A DNA stretch of 25,383 nt from a virus, in the IMG/VR virus record IMGVR_UViG_3300044491_000369, positions 1-25,383 of that record; one strand, written 5' to 3'. Under the pieces are notes generated by a model that worked only from the letters and a program-made list of their open reading frames with translations, ran no database searches and had not been told where the DNA came from. Below are positions 2,701 through 11,434 of the stretch, in pieces. The translations under genes and the position numbers were made by a program. The first letter of the stretch is position 1. Each line of letters begins with the position of its first letter.

Positions 2701-5493
2701 ATGGCTGAAAACAAGTCAAGATTTTCAAAAGCATTAGATTGGTTGAATGCACCAACTGATGCAAGAGTTCGTAGAGAACAAAAAGGTTTACTTGTAAACC
2801 AATCAGAGTATTCATATTTAAATCAAGCAGTTATGGGTTACAATACTCAGTCTGGTTACTTTGACCACAAAAAATTAGCAGAACTAGGAGATGGTACAGG
2901 AAACTCTGCTGTTATTGCATGTCTTAGTGTTTTAGCAACCTCATTCGCAGAACCTGGACTTTTAGTAGCAACAAGAAATGCTGAAGGTGATTATTCACAA
3001 GATATGAACCATCCAATGGCTAGATTGTTTAGAAAACCAAATCCTTACATGACACAACAGTTATTAGCTAACTATATTGTTACTTCTTTAAATGCAAACG
3101 GCGATGCTTTTATTTATAAAAATAGGAATCAAAGAGGACAAGTTGTAGAATTAGTTCCTTTAATGCCTCACTTAGTAGAAGCTAAAGGTAACGAAAACGA
3201 ACTTATTACACATTTTGATTATCAACCACAAGGTGGTATGCAGGGTGAAGATTCTGTAAAGATAGAAAAAAAAGATATGATTCATTTACGCCAAGCTGTT
3301 GACCCAAACAACATGAGGCGAGGACTTGCTCCACTTAGAGGCGTTCTAAGAGAAATAGCAGGAGACGAAGCCGCAGGACAATACACTGCTGCTTTGTTGC
3401 ACAATATGGCAGTACCCGGAGTAATTCTCTCTCCAAGAGATGACCAGATGGGTGGGCCAACAAGAGAAGAAGCCGAAGCTATTGCTGAAATGTATAAGCA
3501 AAAGTTTGGGGGTAAGAACAGAGGTGCTCCTATGGTCTTATCCGGTGCTATGAATGTAGAAATCGTTTCTTTCTCACCAGACCAAATGAAGTTGGCAGAA
3601 TTAAGAAGAATACCAGAAGAAAGAGTTTCAGCGGTACTTGGCGTTCCAGCTATTCTCGCAGGACTCGGCGCTGGTCTTGATTCGGCAACTTACTCAAATA
3701 CAAAAGAACTGAGAGAGTTCTTTACAGAGTCTAAACTAGTTCCAATGTGGAACATGGTTGCGCAAGATTTGACTCATCAATTGTTACGACCAGAGTTTGA
3801 CAGTAGTGATAACGAATACGCAGAATTTGATATTTCTAATGTTAGAGCTTTAGCTGATGACAAAGACAATCTCTATAAACGCATGAACACTGCTGTACAA
3901 GGGGGTTGGGTAACAATTGGCGAAGCAAGAAAAGTTGTAGGATTAGAGGCAGATGATAGACATGATGTTTACTTAAGACCTTTAAATATGATTCAAGTTA
4001 CAGAAGATGGTTCACCACTTCTTAATGATAACCCTACAGAAGAACCTGCTCCGGCAAATAACAATGATGACGAAGAAAGCAAGCTAACAAGTATTGACCT
4101 TCCGCCAGAAGTTGAAAGAGAAGATGTTCCAAAACTAACTCCAACTTACTTGAACGAAGAAAAATATATAGCAGAGATGCCTAATGGCTCATATTGTATT
4201 ATAAGTCATGAAGACGGCGAAATAATTAAGTGCTTTGATTCAAGACAAGAAGCAGAAAATTTTCTTAATAATAAAAAAGAACCAGCTGCTTTGATGAAAG
4301 ATACCTATACGACTATAGAAGAAGCTCAAGAAAGAGCAAAAGAACTAGGTTGTGAAGGAACACACTTTATTGAAGTAGATGGAGATAAATTCTATATGGC
4401 TTGTGCTACACACCAAGATTATTTAGATACAGTCCACAAACCTAAAAAAAATCAAGACATACAAGAACTTAAAGTATCTTTAGAAGAAGCAGAAACAATG
4501 TACGAAAAAGGTGATAAATTACACAGTCCAGAAGAAAAAGCTCCTAAAAAAATAACAAACTTTCCTAAGAGTGGAGATAACCAAAAAATAAGTTTGTCTA
4601 ACTCACAACATAAACAATTCCCTAGTCACGCTTATGTTAAAGATTTAAAGGAAAACTGGCCAGAGATTTGGAGAAGAGCAGGTACCGGTGGTAATCCTCC
4701 TACTTCATTTACTGGTAATGATGCTTTTAATAGATGGACAGCTTACAAAGGCGGAGACAGAAGTGAATCAGTTCTTAACTGGGTTAAGAGAAGAGAACGC
4801 TTTATGAACCGTCATAAGAAAAATAACAGACTTAACGGCACTATTGCTGTAATGAAATGGGGCGGTGTAACAGCCGGTGGTGTTTCACAAATGAAGTCAG
4901 TTGTTAATGATTATAAAAAAGTTATTAGAGAGAGAAGAAAAAAATCTCTTCATATTGCAGAAGAATATTTAATGAAAGCTGTATCTGATAGAGTTAGAAC
5001 AGCTCTTACAAATAAAGTAGAAGACCATAATAAAAGTAATCCAAAACATAGAGCAACATTAACAATGCTTATTGCAGTATTTAACAGAGGTGTTGGAGCT
5101 TACAGAACTAATCCTGGTTCAGTAAGGGGTAATGTTACATCAGCTGACCAGTGGGCAATGGCCAGAGTTAACGGGTTTATAAGAGCATTAAAAACAGGTA
5201 AGTTTAGAAGAAAACCTTACGACCAAGACTTACTACCAAGTTCACATCCATTGTCTTCTAAAAAATCTGGAACTAAAGCAGATTCAGTTGCAGTAGGTCA
5301 AGCAGTAAGTTGGTCAATCAACAAAGACCCAGACCCACCATCAATTGTTCACGGTATTGTTACATCAGTAAATGACGATGAAGCAACTGTTATGGTATGG
5401 GCTCGTTTAGAAAATGGTGACCATCAGAAGACTGATAGAAGCGTAAAGATAGCTATTTCAAAGCTCAAAATAATATCAGACTTTAGACAATAA
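2701..5493 (+). CDS. Portal protein with long C-terminal multidomain extension
   Basis: The portal forms the ring at the head vertex through which DNA is packaged. Residues 1-435 are a typical HK97-family portal, with landmarks LNANGDAF near 130-137, MIHLRQAVDPNN near 193-204 and GVPAILAGLGAGLDSATYSN near 314-333. HK97 portals usually end near 400-450 residues, whereas this one has 930. After an acidic linker (435-480) come several pieces: a small segment (488-525); a segment with TTIEEAQERAKELGCEGTH and MACATHQDY (537-574); a basic region with WPEIWRRAG and AVMKWGG (640-735); a region with NRGVGAYRTNPGSV and DQWAMARVNGF (795-828); and a last SH3/Tudor-like barrel (about 860-925). Similar pieces recur in portals and proteases of other environmental phages, but I cannot give them functions. 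Confidence 0.93.
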   Translation: MAENKSRFSKALDWLNAPTDARVRREQKGLLVNQSEYSYLNQAVMGYNTQSGYFDHKKLAELGDGTGNSAVIACLSVLATSFAEPGLLVATRNAEGDYSQDMNHPMARLFRKPNPYMTQQLLANYIVTSLNANGDAFIYKNRNQRGQVVELVPLMPHLVEAKGNENELITHFDYQPQGGMQGEDSVKIEKKDMIHLRQAVDPNNMRRGLAPLRGVLREIAGDEAAGQYTAALLHNMAVPGVILSPRDDQMGGPTREEAEAIAEMYKQKFGGKNRGAPMVLSGAMNVEIVSFSPDQMKLAELRRIPEERVSAVLGVPAILAGLGAGLDSATYSNTKELREFFTESKLVPMWNMVAQDLTHQLLRPEFDSSDNEYAEFDISNVRALADDKDNLYKRMNTAVQGGWVTIGEARKVVGLEADDRHDVYLRPLNMIQVTEDGSPLLNDNPTEEPAPANNNDDEESKLTSIDLPPEVEREDVPKLTPTYLNEEKYIAEMPNGSYCIISHEDGEIIKCFDSRQEAENFLNNKKEPAALMKDTYTTIEEAQERAKELGCEGTHFIEVDGDKFYMACATHQDYLDTVHKPKKNQDIQELKVSLEEAETMYEKGDKLHSPEEKAPKKITNFPKSGDNQKISLSNSQHKQFPSHAYVKDLKENWPEIWRRAGTGGNPPTSFTGNDAFNRWTAYKGGDRSESVLNWVKRRERFMNRHKKNNRLNGTIAVMKWGGVTAGGVSQMKSVVNDYKKVIRERRKKSLHIAEEYLMKAVSDRVRTALTNKVEDHNKSNPKHRATLTMLIAVFNRGVGAYRTNPGSVRGNVTSADQWAMARVNGFIRALKTGKFRRKPYDQDLLPSSHPLSSKKSGTKADSVAVGQAVSWSINKDPDPPSIVHGIVTSVNDDEATVMVWARLENGDHQKTDRSVKIAISKLKIISDFRQ

Positions 5494-5577
5494 AAAACTA
5501 AATCCCTAAAACATAGTATAAAATAGTTAAGACGCACATCTGAATATTCTATTGTACAATTTAAGATTGAAGGATGT
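5494..5577 (+). promoter_or_regulatory. Spacer with two palindromes before the protease gene
   Basis: GAATATTC at 5542-5549 and ATTGTACAAT at 5551-5560 are perfect palindromes set one base apart. GAAGGA at 5569-5574 is the probable ribosome site for the ATG at 5578, with a tight three-base gap. TATAAA lies upstream at about 5519-5524 without a convincing -35 box. A regulator site or a short structured leader is possible. Confidence 0.25.
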
Positions 5578-6756
5578 ATGGATAACGAATCTAAAAATAT
5601 AGACATAGAGTTAAAAGATAACTCTGGTCAAGTCGAAGCAGTTTTCAGTTTGTTCAACTCCCTTGACAGCGATGGAGATGTTGTTGTACCGGGAGCTGTC
5701 AAATCTGGTTTTAAAAATAATCAAGTACCTATGGTTTGGTCTCACAAATGGGACATGCCTATTGGAAAAGGTACAATCGCACAAGATGATGATAAAGCAG
5801 TGTTTAAAGGTGAGTTCTTTATGGACACAGAGTCTGGCAAAGAAGCTTATAATCTTGTAAAAAACATGGGCGATATGCAACAATGGTCTTTTGGCTACAA
5901 AGTAAACGATTCTGAGTTTGCTAAAGCAAAAACACAAGATGGCGAAACAAACGCTAGATATCTTAAAGACCTTACAGTTTACGAAGTTTCTCCTGTTCTA
6001 GTTGGAGCTAATCAAGATACATATACTCTTGCTATAAAGTCAAACACAGAATTACTTAAAGAAATCACAAGCGAAAAAAACGGCGAAGAAGAGGTTGAAG
6101 TTTCTTCTAGCTGTGATTGCAACTGTGGTTCTAAAGGTTATGGAGATGACGAACAAGAAAAAAAATCATGTAAGTATCACGAAGGTGGTTCTTGTATGAA
6201 GATGGAAGAGGATAAAAAAGAAATGAAAAGTGAAGAAGATTTAGAGATTTCAGAAGGAAGCAAACCTTTCTCTGATGAAGTCAAAGATGTGCTTGCCGCA
6301 TTGGATGACTTAGTCGCAAGAGCAAAAGCAATAGCCTTGCTCCGCGGCGAAGATGGTAGGAAATTAGGCGTTAAAGCCACTGAAGCACTTCGTGCAGTCG
6401 CAGACGACTTGCAAGATGCTTGGACCGAAGTAGATGAGTTCATCGGAACTATCGGAACTGAGGGTGCTTTAGAGTTAGAAGTAGAAGAAGAACTTGTGGA
6501 AGATGAGCCAGCTGAAACAGAAGAGGTAGCTGAGGCTTCAACTGATACTATTGATGTTGAAACAGAAGTCGAAGAAGTTACTGAGGAAGAAGCTTCAGTA
6601 GAGGAATCTGCTGAAGAAGAACCGGAAGATGAAGCTGCTGAAGAAGAAACTCCAGAAGATAACACTGATTCCTCTGACGAAGAATTTGACGCAGAGTGGG
6701 TGAGGGCTCAGCAGATTATCGCTGAATCCTTAGTCGAAGAAATAGAAGAAGTATAA
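5578..6756 (+). CDS. Prohead protease fused to a Cys cluster and acidic tail
   Basis: This is a 392-residue protein. Residues 1-155 match the HK97 prohead protease family, which cleaves the scaffold-like N-terminus of the capsid protein during head maturation. Likely active-site regions are H56 (VWSHKWD), S104 (QQWSFGY) and the VYEVSPVLVGAN segment at 134-145. Residues 179-206 hold five cysteines and a histidine (C179, C181, C183, C198, H201, C206), unusual for this family and suggestive of metal binding. Residues 233-292 are helical and resemble the tail of many actinophage-type proteases. From 296 to the end the chain is very rich in Glu. The acidic tail may act as scaffold. Codons in roughly 6250-6480 are visibly richer in G and C than in the first half. 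Confidence 0.9.
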   Translation: MDNESKNIDIELKDNSGQVEAVFSLFNSLDSDGDVVVPGAVKSGFKNNQVPMVWSHKWDMPIGKGTIAQDDDKAVFKGEFFMDTESGKEAYNLVKNMGDMQQWSFGYKVNDSEFAKAKTQDGETNARYLKDLTVYEVSPVLVGANQDTYTLAIKSNTELLKEITSEKNGEEEVEVSSSCDCNCGSKGYGDDEQEKKSCKYHEGGSCMKMEEDKKEMKSEEDLEISEGSKPFSDEVKDVLAALDDLVARAKAIALLRGEDGRKLGVKATEALRAVADDLQDAWTEVDEFIGTIGTEGALELEVEEELVEDEPAETEEVAEASTDTIDVETEVEEVTEEEASVEESAEEEPEDEAAEEETPEDNTDSSDEEFDAEWVRAQQIIAESLVEEIEEV

Positions 6757-6779
6757 GCAATATAGATAGGAATCTAAAA

Positions 6780-8021
6780 ATGAGTAAAATTAACGAACTC
6801 ATGGACCAAGTTGCTGCTAAAAGAACAGAACTTAAATCTGTCTTTGAAAATAACGAAGACGGCAAGTACACCTCTGAACAAAAAGAGGAAATTAAGTCAA
6901 GAAATGACGAACTTGCTGAACTCGTAGAAGACCTTTCAATTGAGAAGAAAAAAGCTTCCAATGAAAAAGCTCTTTCAGAAGATTCAAAGCCAGTATCTGA
7001 AATGCCACAACCTGGCGTATCAGCAGAAGTTAAATCTGTTGGCGAGCAATTTGTAGACACAGACGCATATAAAAATTATATGTCTAATGGTGTCAAGGGT
7101 GTTGACTCAAAAGTTGAGACAAAAACATCACTAACAACTACAGGATATCCACCGGAAGTCTTAAGACAACCAGGTATCTTGGAGACAGCTCTTAGAGACC
7201 CAAATGCTGTTATATCATTATTTGATGTAATAAACACAGACCAAAATGCTTTCTCATACCTTGAGGAAACAACCTTCACAAACAATGCAGCTGAAGCTGC
7301 TGAAGGTGCAGCAGTCGGTGAAGCAGCATTAGCGTTCACAGAGCAAACAGAAGCAATCCGTAAAATGGGTATTTTTATCCCAGTTACAGATGAATTATTA
7401 GCAGATGAATCTGGTATTCAAGGTTACTTGAATTCTAGACTACAAACAATGATTAGACTTCGTATGGACAACCAACTCCTTAGTGGAGATGGAACTGCTC
7501 CTAACTTAGAAGGAATCTTGGACGCTGGTAAATCATCAGTCGGTAGCACAGACTATAGCTCCTATGCAGGAACTTTAGGAAAAATTGGCGCTATCTACGG
7601 AGCAATTACCGACATTCGTGTCAACGCATTCACAGAACCAGATGCAATTATTATGCATCCTAATGACTGGAATGATGTTGTAACATCAGTCGGAGCAGAC
7701 TTTGCAGGTACCTCTAGTGCTGGTTATGCAGAAAGTTCACCACTTTTTGTAGCAGCTGGTGGTATGGGCGCAGGTCCTTCAGCACAAATCTGGGGACTTA
7801 AAGTCGTTCCTACAACCGCAATTGCCGCAGGAACAGTTCTTGTTGGTAAATTCGGTGGTGGCGAAGCAGCTAATGTTGTTATGAGACAAGGTATGGAAAT
7901 AGCCGTATCTGACTCACATAGCGATTTCTTTACAAAGAATCAATTAGCTATCAGAGCTACCATGAGAGTCGGTTTCCCTGTTTACAGAGAAGCAGCTTTC
8001 CACAAAATCACTAACTTCTAA
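6780..8021 (+). CDS. HK97-fold major capsid protein
   Basis: This 413-residue protein is the building block of the head shell. Residues 1-65 are a charged, probably coiled-coil segment (the delta-type scaffold domain). A linker to about 117 precedes the shell domain, where the prohead protease would cut. Family landmarks include RQPGILETALRDPNAV at 129-144, FTEQTEAIRKMGIFIPVTDELLADE in the N-arm and core, and the C-terminal AIRATMRVGFPVYREAAF. AGGAA at 6768-6772 sits seven bases before the ATG. A strong terminator follows, so the capsid gene ends a transcription unit. C-ending codons appear more often than in the tape measure or gp10-like genes, as expected for a highly expressed protein. Confidence 0.96.
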   Translation: MSKINELMDQVAAKRTELKSVFENNEDGKYTSEQKEEIKSRNDELAELVEDLSIEKKKASNEKALSEDSKPVSEMPQPGVSAEVKSVGEQFVDTDAYKNYMSNGVKGVDSKVETKTSLTTTGYPPEVLRQPGILETALRDPNAVISLFDVINTDQNAFSYLEETTFTNNAAEAAEGAAVGEAALAFTEQTEAIRKMGIFIPVTDELLADESGIQGYLNSRLQTMIRLRMDNQLLSGDGTAPNLEGILDAGKSSVGSTDYSSYAGTLGKIGAIYGAITDIRVNAFTEPDAIIMHPNDWNDVVTSVGADFAGTSSAGYAESSPLFVAAGGMGAGPSAQIWGLKVVPTTAIAAGTVLVGKFGGGEAANVVMRQGMEIAVSDSHSDFFTKNQLAIRATMRVGFPVYREAAFHKITNF

Positions 8022-8041
8022 AGTTAGCTAGATTTATACTT

Positions 8042-8073
8042 AAGAGCGGGTTAAACCCGCTCTTTTGTTTTTA
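8042..8073 (+). terminator. Strong Rho-independent terminator after the capsid gene
   Basis: A perfect ten-base-pair stem (AAGAGCGGGT at 8042-8051 with ACCCGCTCTT at 8055-8064) closes a three-base loop and is followed by TTGTTTTTA. It is the clearest terminator in the window. It probably separates abundant head transcripts from the connector and tail genes, either fully or as an attenuator. Confidence 0.93.
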
Positions 8074-8078
8074 TGTAG

Positions 8079-8084
8079 TAAAAT
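8079..8084 (+). promoter_or_regulatory. Possible -10 box close to the next start codon
   Basis: TAAAAT lies nine bases before the ATG at 8094 and just after the capsid terminator. No Shine-Dalgarno sequence precedes that ATG. With a start site near 8091 the message would be nearly leaderless. No good -35 box is visible. Confidence 0.3.
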
Positions 8085-8093
8085 GATTAAATT

Positions 8094-8351
8094 ATGTCAG
8101 AATATACAAAACCACAGAAAAGCATTTGGAAAATGAAAGATGGTTCCATTTGGGAAGGTCCTTTATCAGAACTTCCTAAATCCGGAGCTTCTCTTATTGC
8201 TAAAGCAGGTAAAGAATATCCGACAGCATGGCTCAATGAGCAAGGCTGGGGTAAAGTGGAGAAGAAAAAAGAATCAGCTCCTAAGAAAAAATCTGCCAAA
8301 AAAGCACCAGAAACCAAAGCTGTCAAACCAGAAGATACAGAAGACAAGTAA
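8094..8351 (+). CDS. Small protein with Lys-rich tail, function unknown
   Basis: An 85-residue protein. The first half has short aromatic and Gly-containing pieces (IWKMKDGSIWEGPL at 12-25, AWLNEQGWGKV further on). The last 30 residues are an Ala/Lys/Pro-rich basic tail of the kind that binds nucleic acid or is simply disordered. I do not recognise a family. No ribosome site is seen, but a -10-like TAAAAT lies just upstream. It precedes the head-tail connector gene by ten bases and is probably co-transcribed with it, so a minor head or connector accessory role is possible. An overlapping frame at 8140-8361 is a shadow. Confidence 0.7.
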   Translation: MSEYTKPQKSIWKMKDGSIWEGPLSELPKSGASLIAKAGKEYPTAWLNEQGWGKVEKKKESAPKKKSAKKAPETKAVKPEDTEDK

Positions 8352-8361
8352 GGAGTCCTAA

Positions 8362-9006
8362 ATGGCTCTTTGTAGCGCTAGTGATGTAGAGCAATTTCTT
8401 CAAATTGATTTAAACTCAACTGTTGAATCCTCAGTAACAAATACTTTCATACCTTATGTTGATGCTGCTATTAAGCGTTATTTAGGTCATGATATAGAAC
8501 AAGCTACATACACAGAAACTTTTGACGGTAATGAACAACAAGATTTATTTCTTCGTCATATTCCTATTGCTTCTATAACATCTGTTACTGAAGATGGAAA
8601 CACATTAGTTACAGGCAATGAAAAAGATTATGTTCATTACGATAACGGTAGATTAAGAAGAATAGTAGTTAGATGGTCTGGCATAAAACCCAAAAATATT
8701 TTAGTTACTTATGTTGGTGGATATCAATCAGCTGACATTCCAGAACAAATTAAATTTACTTCTGCTAAAGCTTCAGCAAGAATGGTTATGACAGCACTTC
8801 AAATTTCTGCAAAAGCAGATACTGGAGAAGTAGGCTCTCATTTAGCTGACAATACCTCTAGTTCAAGATTTGATGTTCCTATAACTGAAAGAATAGGAGA
8901 CTATGATGTTGCTTACGGAGATGTGGTAATACAAAGTCTTACTCCCGTTCTAACACAAGCTGATATGGCTGTATTAAACCCTTTTAAAAGCAGATTCTTT
9001 GTATAA
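8362..9006 (+). CDS. Head-tail connector (adaptor, HK97 gp6-like)
   Basis: This 214-residue protein has the layout of the adaptor that forms the ring below the portal. An N-terminal helical part (ASDVEQFLQIDLN at 6-18, then FIPYVDAAIKRYLGHDIE) is followed by a beta-rich middle with RHIPIASITSVTEDGN and a Tyr-containing LVTYVGGYQ stretch, then further helices (FTSAKASARMVMTALQI). The gene's order after the capsid fits. AGGAG at 8351-8355, six bases before the ATG, is one of the best ribosome sites in the window. Its stop codon overlaps a TATAAT box that may drive the next gene. Family assignment rests on pattern and position, without an alignment. Confidence 0.8.
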   Translation: MALCSASDVEQFLQIDLNSTVESSVTNTFIPYVDAAIKRYLGHDIEQATYTETFDGNEQQDLFLRHIPIASITSVTEDGNTLVTGNEKDYVHYDNGRLRRIVVRWSGIKPKNILVTYVGGYQSADIPEQIKFTSAKASARMVMTALQISAKADTGEVGSHLADNTSSSRFDVPITERIGDYDVAYGDVVIQSLTPVLTQADMAVLNPFKSRFFV

Positions 9007-9007
9007 T
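9002..9007 (+). promoter_or_regulatory. TATAAT box immediately before the cassette
   Basis: A perfect TATAAT overlaps the stop of the connector gene and ends five bases before the ATG at 9013, which has no Shine-Dalgarno sequence. A transcript starting at the usual distance would begin at or next to the ATG, that is, leaderless. No clear -35 box is seen, and AT-rich DNA gives such boxes by chance. Confidence 0.4.
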
Positions 9008-9012
9008 AGAGT

Positions 9013-9666
9013 ATGGTACATAGAAAAGCTCCATCTTTGGAAGAGGCAAGGGAGCTCTTTTTAACAGACCCTAACAAAATGCTCCAAGAGTGGGCAGATG
9101 AATGGGGAGTTACACATGAAAGAGTTCGTCAATTAAGAATAGAATCTGGTGTACCTCAACGCGGTGCATACAATCAAGAAACTGCTGAGGCAATACTAGA
9201 AATAATTAAAACTGGTCGTGGTGGTTTAACTACACCAAGAACTTATGAAGAACAACCTATAGGTCTGGAAAGATTTAAAACTTGGATAGAGGAAGAAGAA
9301 GGTTTAGCCGAGCGTGTTTTAGAAGCACAAAAATTAGCTGCTAAAAGTTTAAAAGACCCCATTGAAAAAGAATGTAAATATTGTCGTGAATGGAAACCTG
9401 TAGAAGAATATAAAAAAAACCAAAGATATTTAGACGGTCTAACAAGATTTTGTATTGAATGTATAGACATACTAAAACAAAAAAAAGAACAGTTAGGTGA
9501 TGAGAAAATGAAAATCTGTTTGTTTTGCAAACAAGATAAAAAATCTTCAGAGTTTTCTAAAAATCCTAATTCACCAGATGGATTTAAATTATTTTGTAAA
9601 GATTGTCACAAAACTTCTAAAAGAAAAAAAAGAAAAAAGAATAGGATAATTAACAAAAATGCCTAG
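9013..9666 (+). CDS. HTH protein with two zinc knuckles
   Basis: This 217-residue protein looks nucleic-acid binding. Residues 22-45 (with EWGVTHERVRQLR) look like a sigma-factor or recombinase type helix-turn-helix. Two CxxC...CxxC units follow, C121/C124 with C147/C150 and C169/C172 with C195/C198. They share the pattern F/Y-x-K-N, then DG, then a hydrophobic residue and FC. They are probably treble-clef or zinc-ribbon units of the sort found in phage His-Me finger proteins, but no catalytic His-containing motif is visible. The C-terminus is a Lys/Arg run. It interrupts the connector genes and so is cargo rather than structural. It may be a regulator or a degenerate homing nuclease. It overlaps the next gene by eight bases. 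Confidence 0.75.
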   Translation: MVHRKAPSLEEARELFLTDPNKMLQEWADEWGVTHERVRQLRIESGVPQRGAYNQETAEAILEIIKTGRGGLTTPRTYEEQPIGLERFKTWIEEEEGLAERVLEAQKLAAKSLKDPIEKECKYCREWKPVEEYKKNQRYLDGLTRFCIECIDILKQKKEQLGDEKMKICLFCKQDKKSSEFSKNPNSPDGFKLFCKDCHKTSKRKKRKKNRIINKNA

Positions 9667-9898
9667 ATACGATTACAAGTGTTTGAAGTGTGAGAAACTA
9701 TACGAGATACAACACAAAATTACTGAAGAGCCAGAAATTATTTGTCCTGTGTGCTCTTTTACCTGTTTTAGACAAATATCAAAAAATGTATTATTTGAAA
9801 CATCCGGAGATTTAGAATGGTCTGGAGACCCTAGCAAAATGGGTAATGATATTAAAAGAAAATATTCCAAGCTTAAAAAAAGGAAGTACAAGTGGTAA
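9659..9898 (+). CDS. FmdB-like zinc-ribbon protein
   Basis: A 79-residue protein beginning MPRYDYKCLKCEKLYEI, the classic opening of FmdB-family zinc ribbons. The second Cys pair is in CPVC (C8/C11 and C29/C32; an extra C36), and FRQIS at 37-41 is also a family feature. The family is thought to bind zinc and perhaps nucleic acid; FmdB itself was proposed as a regulator in methylotrophs. The C-terminal Lys-rich stretch resembles that of the preceding protein. It overlaps both neighbours (start inside 9013-9666, stop inside the next start), so the three genes are probably translated together. Confidence 0.8.
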   Translation: MPRYDYKCLKCEKLYEIQHKITEEPEIICPVCSFTCFRQISKNVLFETSGDLEWSGDPSKMGNDIKRKYSKLKKRKYKW

Positions 9899-11076
9899 AA
9901 GATGAAGGTAATCAAGAAGTACTGAGTGGTAAAAATAGATATTTTTTGCACTATAAAAATTATTCAATACTACAAGACCCTGTTAAAAAAAATAATTACT
10001 TAATAACACTGTATGTGCCAATCAGAGAGTTTGTATATAACAGACCAGGACTAAAACAAAGCTTACCTATTCATCCAAATTGTAATACTGTAGATATAAA
10101 CGAAAAAAATAAAAGTAATGTTATTAAAAATATAAAACAAGAATTTGGACAAATAGGAACTTTTCACTTAGATTCACAAGGAATAAAAATAATTTGTAAA
10201 GATGTTGAAATATCAGACACAGGACAAAGAGTAGCTTTTAATATTACAAATTTAGCAAATGAGGGAATTGTTGATGGAGCTAATTTATACTTAGCTATAA
10301 ATGAACTTACTACTGAAGAGATTTCTAAACACTCTTATGTAAAAGTAGAAATACATGTACTAGAAAATACAAATATAAGTGACAACATGACAGAATCTCT
10401 TGATAGCAAAATTTCTCTAGACAATAAAGTTAATTTAACCAAAAAAGAATTGTATTGGCTTGAAGAAATTGTTGAACAAACTGATTACAAAGACAAAATA
10501 GATTTAATAGATGTATTATGTTATATAAATCTTTTAAGAAATAACTACTATGACGCAGATGTTAGCAATCAACCAACAGACTCATATTGGAATAAGCAAA
10601 AGGTAAAAGAAGTATACAAAAAAAATCCTTCTAGCTTTGCTCAATTTGGACCTTTAGTTAAAGACATACTTTACTTGCATGATTATATTAATTTTAAGAC
10701 ACAAGAATTGTGGCCAAATAAAAGAGGGAGTTTAAATAGTTTAGGTCTTACAACTAAGTATAAACAAAAAGCTTATAGCTTAGAGATATTAGATAAAAAA
10801 TTAGATTATAAATTACATGAAGCAGTTTTATGTGTACTACTTAATGGTTTTCGTTCTTTTGTTATATTTAACCCAGATAGAAGTGCAAGATGGTCTAAAG
10901 ACTTTGATGAAATTCTTAAAATTTATGATACTGTAATTTTAGAAATTATAACAATAATAAAAGACTACAGTACTCAGTTAGGTCACAACCCACACTTATT
11001 AGGTAAGAATGCAATGTTATATAGCATTGTGTATAAAGAGTTTATGATGAGTGATTTACTAAACCAATTTTTATAA
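9892..11076 (+). CDS. AIPR-like (abortive infection phage resistance) protein, divergent
   Basis: A 394-residue protein starting at GTG 9892, with AGGAAG at 9881-9886. I recall AIPR-family proteins as running: an I-P-L/I-R-x-L/F opening; a segment like FxLLNxGI; a segment like GIxDGGHT; an RN(T/S)-containing loop; then a Trp-containing helix and a helical tail with SY-x-S/N-K and DIL-x-L-x-DYI. Here the matching segments are YVPIREF (41-47), FHLDSQGI (91-98), GIVDGANL (125-132), YWLEEI (188-193), SYWNKQKV (231-238) and DILYLHDYI (258-266). The order is kept, but the NNG/NRG, GGHT/GGQT and RN signatures are replaced by DSQG, GANL and a Ser/Lys loop. The gene is richer in A-runs than the structural genes. 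The family is linked to abortive infection, but its biochemistry is not known to me. It is inserted between connector genes. Confidence 0.7.
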   Translation: MVKDEGNQEVLSGKNRYFLHYKNYSILQDPVKKNNYLITLYVPIREFVYNRPGLKQSLPIHPNCNTVDINEKNKSNVIKNIKQEFGQIGTFHLDSQGIKIICKDVEISDTGQRVAFNITNLANEGIVDGANLYLAINELTTEEISKHSYVKVEIHVLENTNISDNMTESLDSKISLDNKVNLTKKELYWLEEIVEQTDYKDKIDLIDVLCYINLLRNNYYDADVSNQPTDSYWNKQKVKEVYKKNPSSFAQFGPLVKDILYLHDYINFKTQELWPNKRGSLNSLGLTTKYKQKAYSLEILDKKLDYKLHEAVLCVLLNGFRSFVIFNPDRSARWSKDFDEILKIYDTVILEIITIIKDYSTQLGHNPHLLGKNAMLYSIVYKEFMMSDLLNQFL

Positions 11077-11098
11077 ATTTCTGATGTAAAGTTAAGGT

Positions 11099-11434
11099 AT
11101 GCCTATACCACATAGATTTTTACCAGAAACAGCAACTATACAAACCGTTTCGGACACCACTGTTGACGAACGAGGTTTACCTAGTGCTAGCTGGGCAGAT
11201 ACATATACAAATGTTAAATGTAAATTTGAATCTTTAGGTGCAGAAGAAGATAGAGAAGGTAGAAATACTACAGTTGAATCTTTTAATGTATTTATAGAAA
11301 AAGGTATATCAGTTACTCCCGGAGATAGACTTAAAAGAGGTAGTAACTATCATGAAATTACATTTGTTCAACCTTTGTTAGATAGATATGGAGTAGAGTG
11401 TTATAAGATGCTTCAAACATTCGTAGCTAAATAA
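11099..11434 (+). CDS. Head closure / head-tail joining protein
   Basis: A 111-residue protein with the small beta-barrel pattern of the phage head-tail joining family: an opening MPIPHRFLPETATIQT, DERGLPSASW at 23-32, a middle strand around VESFNVFIEKG, and VTPGDRLKRGSNYHEI (positions 77-92) near the end. It would form the stopper ring that closes the filled head and joins the tail. AAGG at 11094-11097 lies directly before the ATG, closer than usual. The gene ends on the next start (TAATG). Without the inserted cassette it would directly follow the first connector, as in related phages. Confidence 0.85.
   Translation: MPIPHRFLPETATIQTVSDTTVDERGLPSASWADTYTNVKCKFESLGAEEDREGRNTTVESFNVFIEKGISVTPGDRLKRGSNYHEITFVQPLLDRYGVECYKMLQTFVAK

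Follow-up and report, generated by a model that had tools for sequence, protein, structure and literature searches.

A divergent AIPR-like protein encoded in the late structural operon of a siphophage lineage

Introduction

Phage genomes often include anti-phage genes, which they carry as optional cargo. One family known from defence islands is AIPR (PF10592), which has been described as a component of defence systems (PMC9523054). Its members have already been recorded in phages, namely in Bacillus phage Goe8 and in Podoviridae sp. ct8nN1. In addition, the N-domain of DndB has been assigned to the AbiU1/AIPR family (PMC3506569), and DndB has been described as a ParB-like protein (PMC11662687; PMC12704722). 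In the literature outside subscription-only papers, we found no description of an AIPR protein encoded as a fixed gene of a structural operon, or of one with the site changes reported here. The locus analyzed in this study lies on a stretch of 25,383 nucleotides (positions 1 to 25,383 of the IMG/VR virus record IMGVR_UViG_3300044491_000369), hereafter called the window, in which an earlier note made from the sequence alone had proposed a divergent AIPR-family protein.

The AIPR-like Gene and Its Relatives

The window carries the late operon of a siphophage, with genes for terminase, portal, protease, capsid, and adaptor, three small-to-medium genes, head completion, and tail genes (Table 1). 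The reading frame of the AIPR-like gene is open and contains every segment that the earlier note had quoted from a protein of 394 residues. Scans of IMG/VR recovered about 60 viral relatives of this protein, with identities of 41–100% and lengths of 389–394 aa, and their alignment with the window protein is almost free of indels. The dN/dS values of 0.04–0.22 across pairs are those of a selected, not a decaying, gene; the AIPR-like gene is real and under purifying selection. It is AT-rich (26.7% GC), but a recent foreign origin was rejected because its third-position GC is similar to that of the neighbouring genes, so that amino-acid composition suffices to explain the low value. The pI of the protein, near 6, does not indicate strong general DNA binding. 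Frameshifted copies occur in a few relatives, and a pseudogene reading of them was also rejected. Sequencing error is more likely, since further genes on the same contig are broken as well in one case (L163) and the neighbouring EndoVII-like match is short too in the others (L022/L069).

Table 1. Positions of the AIPR-like gene, its sites, and its neighbours in the window.
Feature	Position	Strand	Remarks
Portal gene	2701-5493		930 aa in total; fused C-terminally to a long part that matches DUF3721 and DUF5824
Prohead protease gene	5578-6756		C-terminal part long, Glu-rich, and highly acidic; net charge of whole protein -71; perhaps a fused scaffold
Head-tail adaptor Ad1-like gene	8362..9006	+	phrog_442, E = 9e-20; flanks the cassette
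Cassette gene 1, HTH/zinc (EndoVII-like)	9013..9666	+	HTH-like at the N terminus; two zinc-knuckle modules resembling those in endonuclease VII-type proteins; 46/46 intervals
Cassette gene 2, FmdB-family zinc ribbon	9659..9898	+	TIGR02605, E = 2e-11; PF09723; overlaps the AIPR start by 7 nt
AIPR-like gene	9892..11076	+	394 aa; GTG start (ATG in relatives); stop codon within coordinates
Residues 62-65, PNCN	10075..10086	+	Aligns with TNPR/VNPR of canonical AIPR; Arg lost
Residues 91-98, FHLDSQGI	10162..10185	+	Aligns with FxxxNRGI; KSQG, NQG, SHG, or NHG in the clade
Residues 128-133, DGANLY	10273..10290	+	Aligns with DGGHTY; D128 and G129 invariant in 62/62 aligned proteins
Residues 169-176, SLDSKISL	10396..10419	+	Aligns with ARNTSVQV; N and Q lost
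R321	10852..10854	+	Invariant in phage and bacterial members
Residues 364-372, GHNPHLLGK	10981..11007	+	C-terminal NPxxxGK motif common to canonical AIPR
Head-completion (Phage_HCP-like) gene	11099..11434	+	PF05521, E = 1e-3, below cut-off; phrog_615, E = 1e-4; 22 nt past the AIPR stop codon

Membership of the AIPR Family

The AIPR likeness is visible only through the clade, as the window protein alone has no AIPR match in Pfam. Single-sequence searches of Pfam, PHROG, NCBIfam, PADLOC, and PDB sequences with this protein gave nothing useful, and its weak Pfam matches to Fimbrillin_C, SH3DP, and INCENP_N were taken as noise. PADLOC missed the canonical AIPRs too. Among the four relatives tested, all of which match PF10592, one (L154) passes the cut-off of 25 bits with 40.2 bits (E = 4e-10), and three fall slightly under it (E = 7e-5 to 2e-4). 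The comparison of the phage-clade profile with 42 canonical AIPRs, reference proteins gathered from species genomes, gave an hhalign probability of 100 and E = 2.6e-43 over 357 of the 394 columns, whereas an unrelated control, the adaptor gene, reached a probability of 0.2; hhalign E-values apply to one pair only, and the contrast with the control is clear. A tblastn search with another relative (L016) retrieved plasmid proteins annotated as AIPR, the best with E = 7e-10 and 2e-9, at coverages up to 96%.

These matches, together with the rise in pLDDT and the Foldseek match reported below, support well the assignment of the window protein as a divergent, full-length member of the AIPR family, with an identity of the phage form to the aligned canonical AIPRs of only about 16–22%. 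The family assignment of the earlier note, and the collinear order of segments that it had claimed across the whole protein, are thus borne out, while the profile search that it had suggested as a check succeeds with the clade profile and not, in Pfam, with the single protein. A chance similarity in motif order within an unrelated phage protein would agree with the missing Pfam match of the window protein, but it is extremely improbable given the full-length profile–profile alignment, the relative above the cut-off, and the full-length tblastn matches. Relatives of the phage form were found neither in GTDB species genomes, as scanned by peptide patterns only, nor in named phages, where the search returned only a faecal scaffold with a broken AIPR of canonical type.

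Signature Sites

Four sites (NPR, N-R-G, DGGHT, and RN..Q) are near-invariant in the 42 references, which describes these proteins and is not a formal criterion of Pfam membership. The R of NPR, the G of NRG, DGGHT as a whole, and the N of RN are invariant among them, and the remaining positions nearly so. In the phage clade, PNCN (or PEC, PDV, and similar) takes the place of NPR, and the other sites read [SNT][QH]G, DG[ASG][NHYA][LIF]Y, and LDxK or xNxK. The window protein retains G97, D128, and G129 as the sole remnants of the signature residues at the catalytic-type sites. The site alignment upholds the loss of all three sites named in the earlier note, including its DSQG, which is altered from the canonical form as claimed; however, the D of this motif is peculiar to the window, most relatives having KSQG.

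Intermediates are still visible at the DGGHT site, where DGGNLY, DGSHIY, DGSAFY, and DGANLY occur. The first of these belongs to L166, the deepest branch of the clade under midpoint rooting (92/76 support), and three relatives (L109, L147, and L151) retain an N at the third site. Within the clade, the new residues at these sites are conserved and not random, and the alignment indicates that the signature site is rebuilt, not simply eroded. In the same tree, a viral AIPR from a different contig (L286:5992-7167) attaches near the root by a long branch, and nothing was concluded from its placement; this protein is of canonical type (KNKGI, DGGHTY) and is encoded on the strand opposite to most neighbouring genes.

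Five residues, D128, G129, G125, R321, and G371, show no variation across all 62 phage and bacterial proteins in the alignment. The persistence of D128, G129, R321, and G371 could be explained if the protein were active, as an enzyme or a nucleotide binder with a changed specificity, and worked through D128/G129, R321, and NPxxxGK; the nucleotide bound is known to differ among ParB-fold proteins (PMC12704722). However, nearly all phage members carry other residues in place of the R of NPR, the H and T of DGGHT, and the N of RN, and we regard such an activity as unlikely.

Predicted Structure and Possible Relation to ParB

The AlphaFold pLDDT of the phage protein increased from 76.5 to 88.0 once canonical AIPRs were added to the alignment, and a Foldseek search against viral models matched an annotated AIPR protein (E = 6.8e-5). 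The fold is predicted to be kept despite the loss of the signature. Against the PDB, the first structure model matched nothing; the better model gave Noc as the top match (E = 0.28), with SspE and PadC also listed; none of these matches, with E-values from 0.28 to 8.9, is significant. Comparisons of sequence profiles for AIPR with ParB or with DUF262 gave no signal, and they are uninformative, since the accepted link between DUF262 and ParB was equally silent.

According to the alignment and the predicted secondary structure, the order of NPR, helix, strands, DGGHT at a strand–helix junction, strand, helix, and RN..Q resembles that of ParB boxes I, II, and III. The AIPR N-domain could be a ParB/sulfiredoxin-like, nucleotide-dependent fold in which NPR, DGGHT, and RN..Q stand roughly at these three boxes. 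If the ParB link holds, the phage form, in which the nucleotide-contacting positions are lost, would no longer undergo nucleotide switching and would act as a fixed-state binder. The phage form may be a ParB/Srx-like, probably NTPase-dead protein that takes part in late DNA transactions or head completion.

Genomic Context and Possible Function

Scans run independently with the adaptor protein and with the head-completion protein identified 46 distinct intervals containing both genes. In every one of them, the HTH/zinc gene, the FmdB-like zinc-ribbon gene, and the AIPR gene lie between the two. The zinc-ribbon gene overlaps the AIPR start in most intervals, and the head-completion gene begins 22–32 nt (mostly 25) after the last AIPR codon. 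All relatives are found in the late structural operon, and none has a defence-island, restriction-modification, or HTH-regulated context. Distances between phages in the AIPR protein track those in the adaptor Ad1 (rho 0.81) and the HTH/zinc gene (rho 0.86) and are less tied to those in the zinc ribbon (rho 0.27) and head completion (rho 0.46). A single insertion of the cassette into an older connector module, followed by fixation, is the probable history, because no AIPR is annotated at the corresponding place in MW202444, and in a distant relative (L113) the adaptor, Phage_HCP, HK97-gp10-like, and tail-completion genes are directly consecutive, without the cassette.

In the EndoVII-like neighbour, a sigma-4-like HTH is joined to two zinc-knuckle modules, with no HNH nuclease core seen, and the protein may serve in DNA binding or late regulation. 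In some relatives (L076:6209-7087, L104:6287-7090, and L146:2782-3558), an additional ORF of 259–294 aa separates the HTH/zinc gene from the zinc ribbon, with a weak DUF6065 match in two. A comparison of L012 with window positions 2701-11434 gave 97–100% identity over portal, protease, capsid, and g8094 and 61–85% over the genes from the adaptor through AIPR, a drop that indicates a recombination breakpoint immediately upstream of the connector block.

The fixed late position in all 46 intervals, the tracking of the adaptor gene, and the purifying selection favour an AIPR-family protein that was acquired by an ancestor of the lineage and domesticated as a core gene of the late operon, instead of an accessory gene for defence, decoy, or exclusion. 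We give this reading about an even chance. The functions originally suggested for the protein, as a decoy, an inhibitor of a host AIPR system, or a superinfection-exclusion factor, fit the same evidence less well. Counting against domestication, the evolutionary rate of the AIPR protein is about double that of the adaptor (mean distance of 0.44 vs. 0.21), which would also be expected from a role in an arms race.

Counter-defence genes are typically expressed early and distributed patchily. An inactive look-alike of AIPR, acting by poisoning or titrating the AIPR system of a host, would account for the faster evolution relative to the neighbouring head genes, the best point for both the decoy and the exclusion explanations, and for the loss of almost all signature residues from a fold predicted to be kept; the place of AIPR in defence systems also agrees with it. 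However, it fits poorly with a gene that every phage of the group has, at a single site of the late operon; in addition, the low identity to canonical AIPRs makes mixed complexes unlikely, and no host AIPR partner is known. Counter-defence is therefore distinctly unlikely. A retuned, still active AIPR could instead provide superinfection exclusion or inter-phage defence late in infection, as the occurrence of the family in defence islands and the conservation of the altered sites within the clade would allow. Such a role is quite improbable for a gene that is universal and fixed in position, not variable, whose signature residues are gone and for which no immunity or antitoxin-like partner was seen.

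Returning to domestication, an ancestor of the phage lineage would have acquired an AIPR-family gene, whose product may now bind protein or DNA constitutively late in infection, acting with its HTH/zinc and FmdB-like neighbours. The late operon and these neighbours suggest a role in completing the head, packaging the genome, or controlling late genes. That the lineage has turned a defence-family protein of ParB-like fold into an obligate late factor for head completion or packaging, its nucleotide switch having been lost, is a tentative and rather doubtful extension of this reading. Across a whole phage lineage, a defence-family protein seems to belong to the fixed set of late genes; its signature site is apparently rebuilt, and intermediates survive. 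The clade offers a natural mutant series for asking what the AIPR signature residues do, and it suggests a testable ParB-like mechanism for the family.

Comparison with Known Systems

One comparison is with the ParB/Srx superfamily (DndB, GmrSD-N (DUF262), and ParB/Noc), which resembles the phage protein in the order of boxes and of secondary structure around the DG site and in weak fold matches. However, GxxR in this superfamily corresponds to DGGHT in AIPR and DGANL here, and there is no significant match in sequence or to PDB folds. The AIPR of MORC/Z1-type defence operons (mza-like, MzaE) shares the family name (PMC9523054), but no gene for MutL/MORC, Z1 helicase, PD-(D/E)XK, or methylase was recognised in the window. 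Bacillus phage Goe8 also carries an AIPR gene, annotated as a ‘putative AIPR protein’ (L315); it has a clear PF10592 match (54 bits) and, unlike the gene described here, is located among non-structural genes, adjoining a sigma-factor gene. This arrangement (L315:7899-8927) recalls the mza systems, which list a sigma factor. The short stand-alone AIPRs of plasmids and Bacillota genomes (PF10592, ~390–405 aa), with a divergent HTH gene upstream in six of the seven plasmid loci, possess the NPR, NRG, DGGHT, and RN..Q sites, whereas the phage form is without these and is encoded in a structural operon. Both nevertheless have the same length, collinear motifs across the whole protein, and the D-G pair, R321, and NPxxxGK in common.
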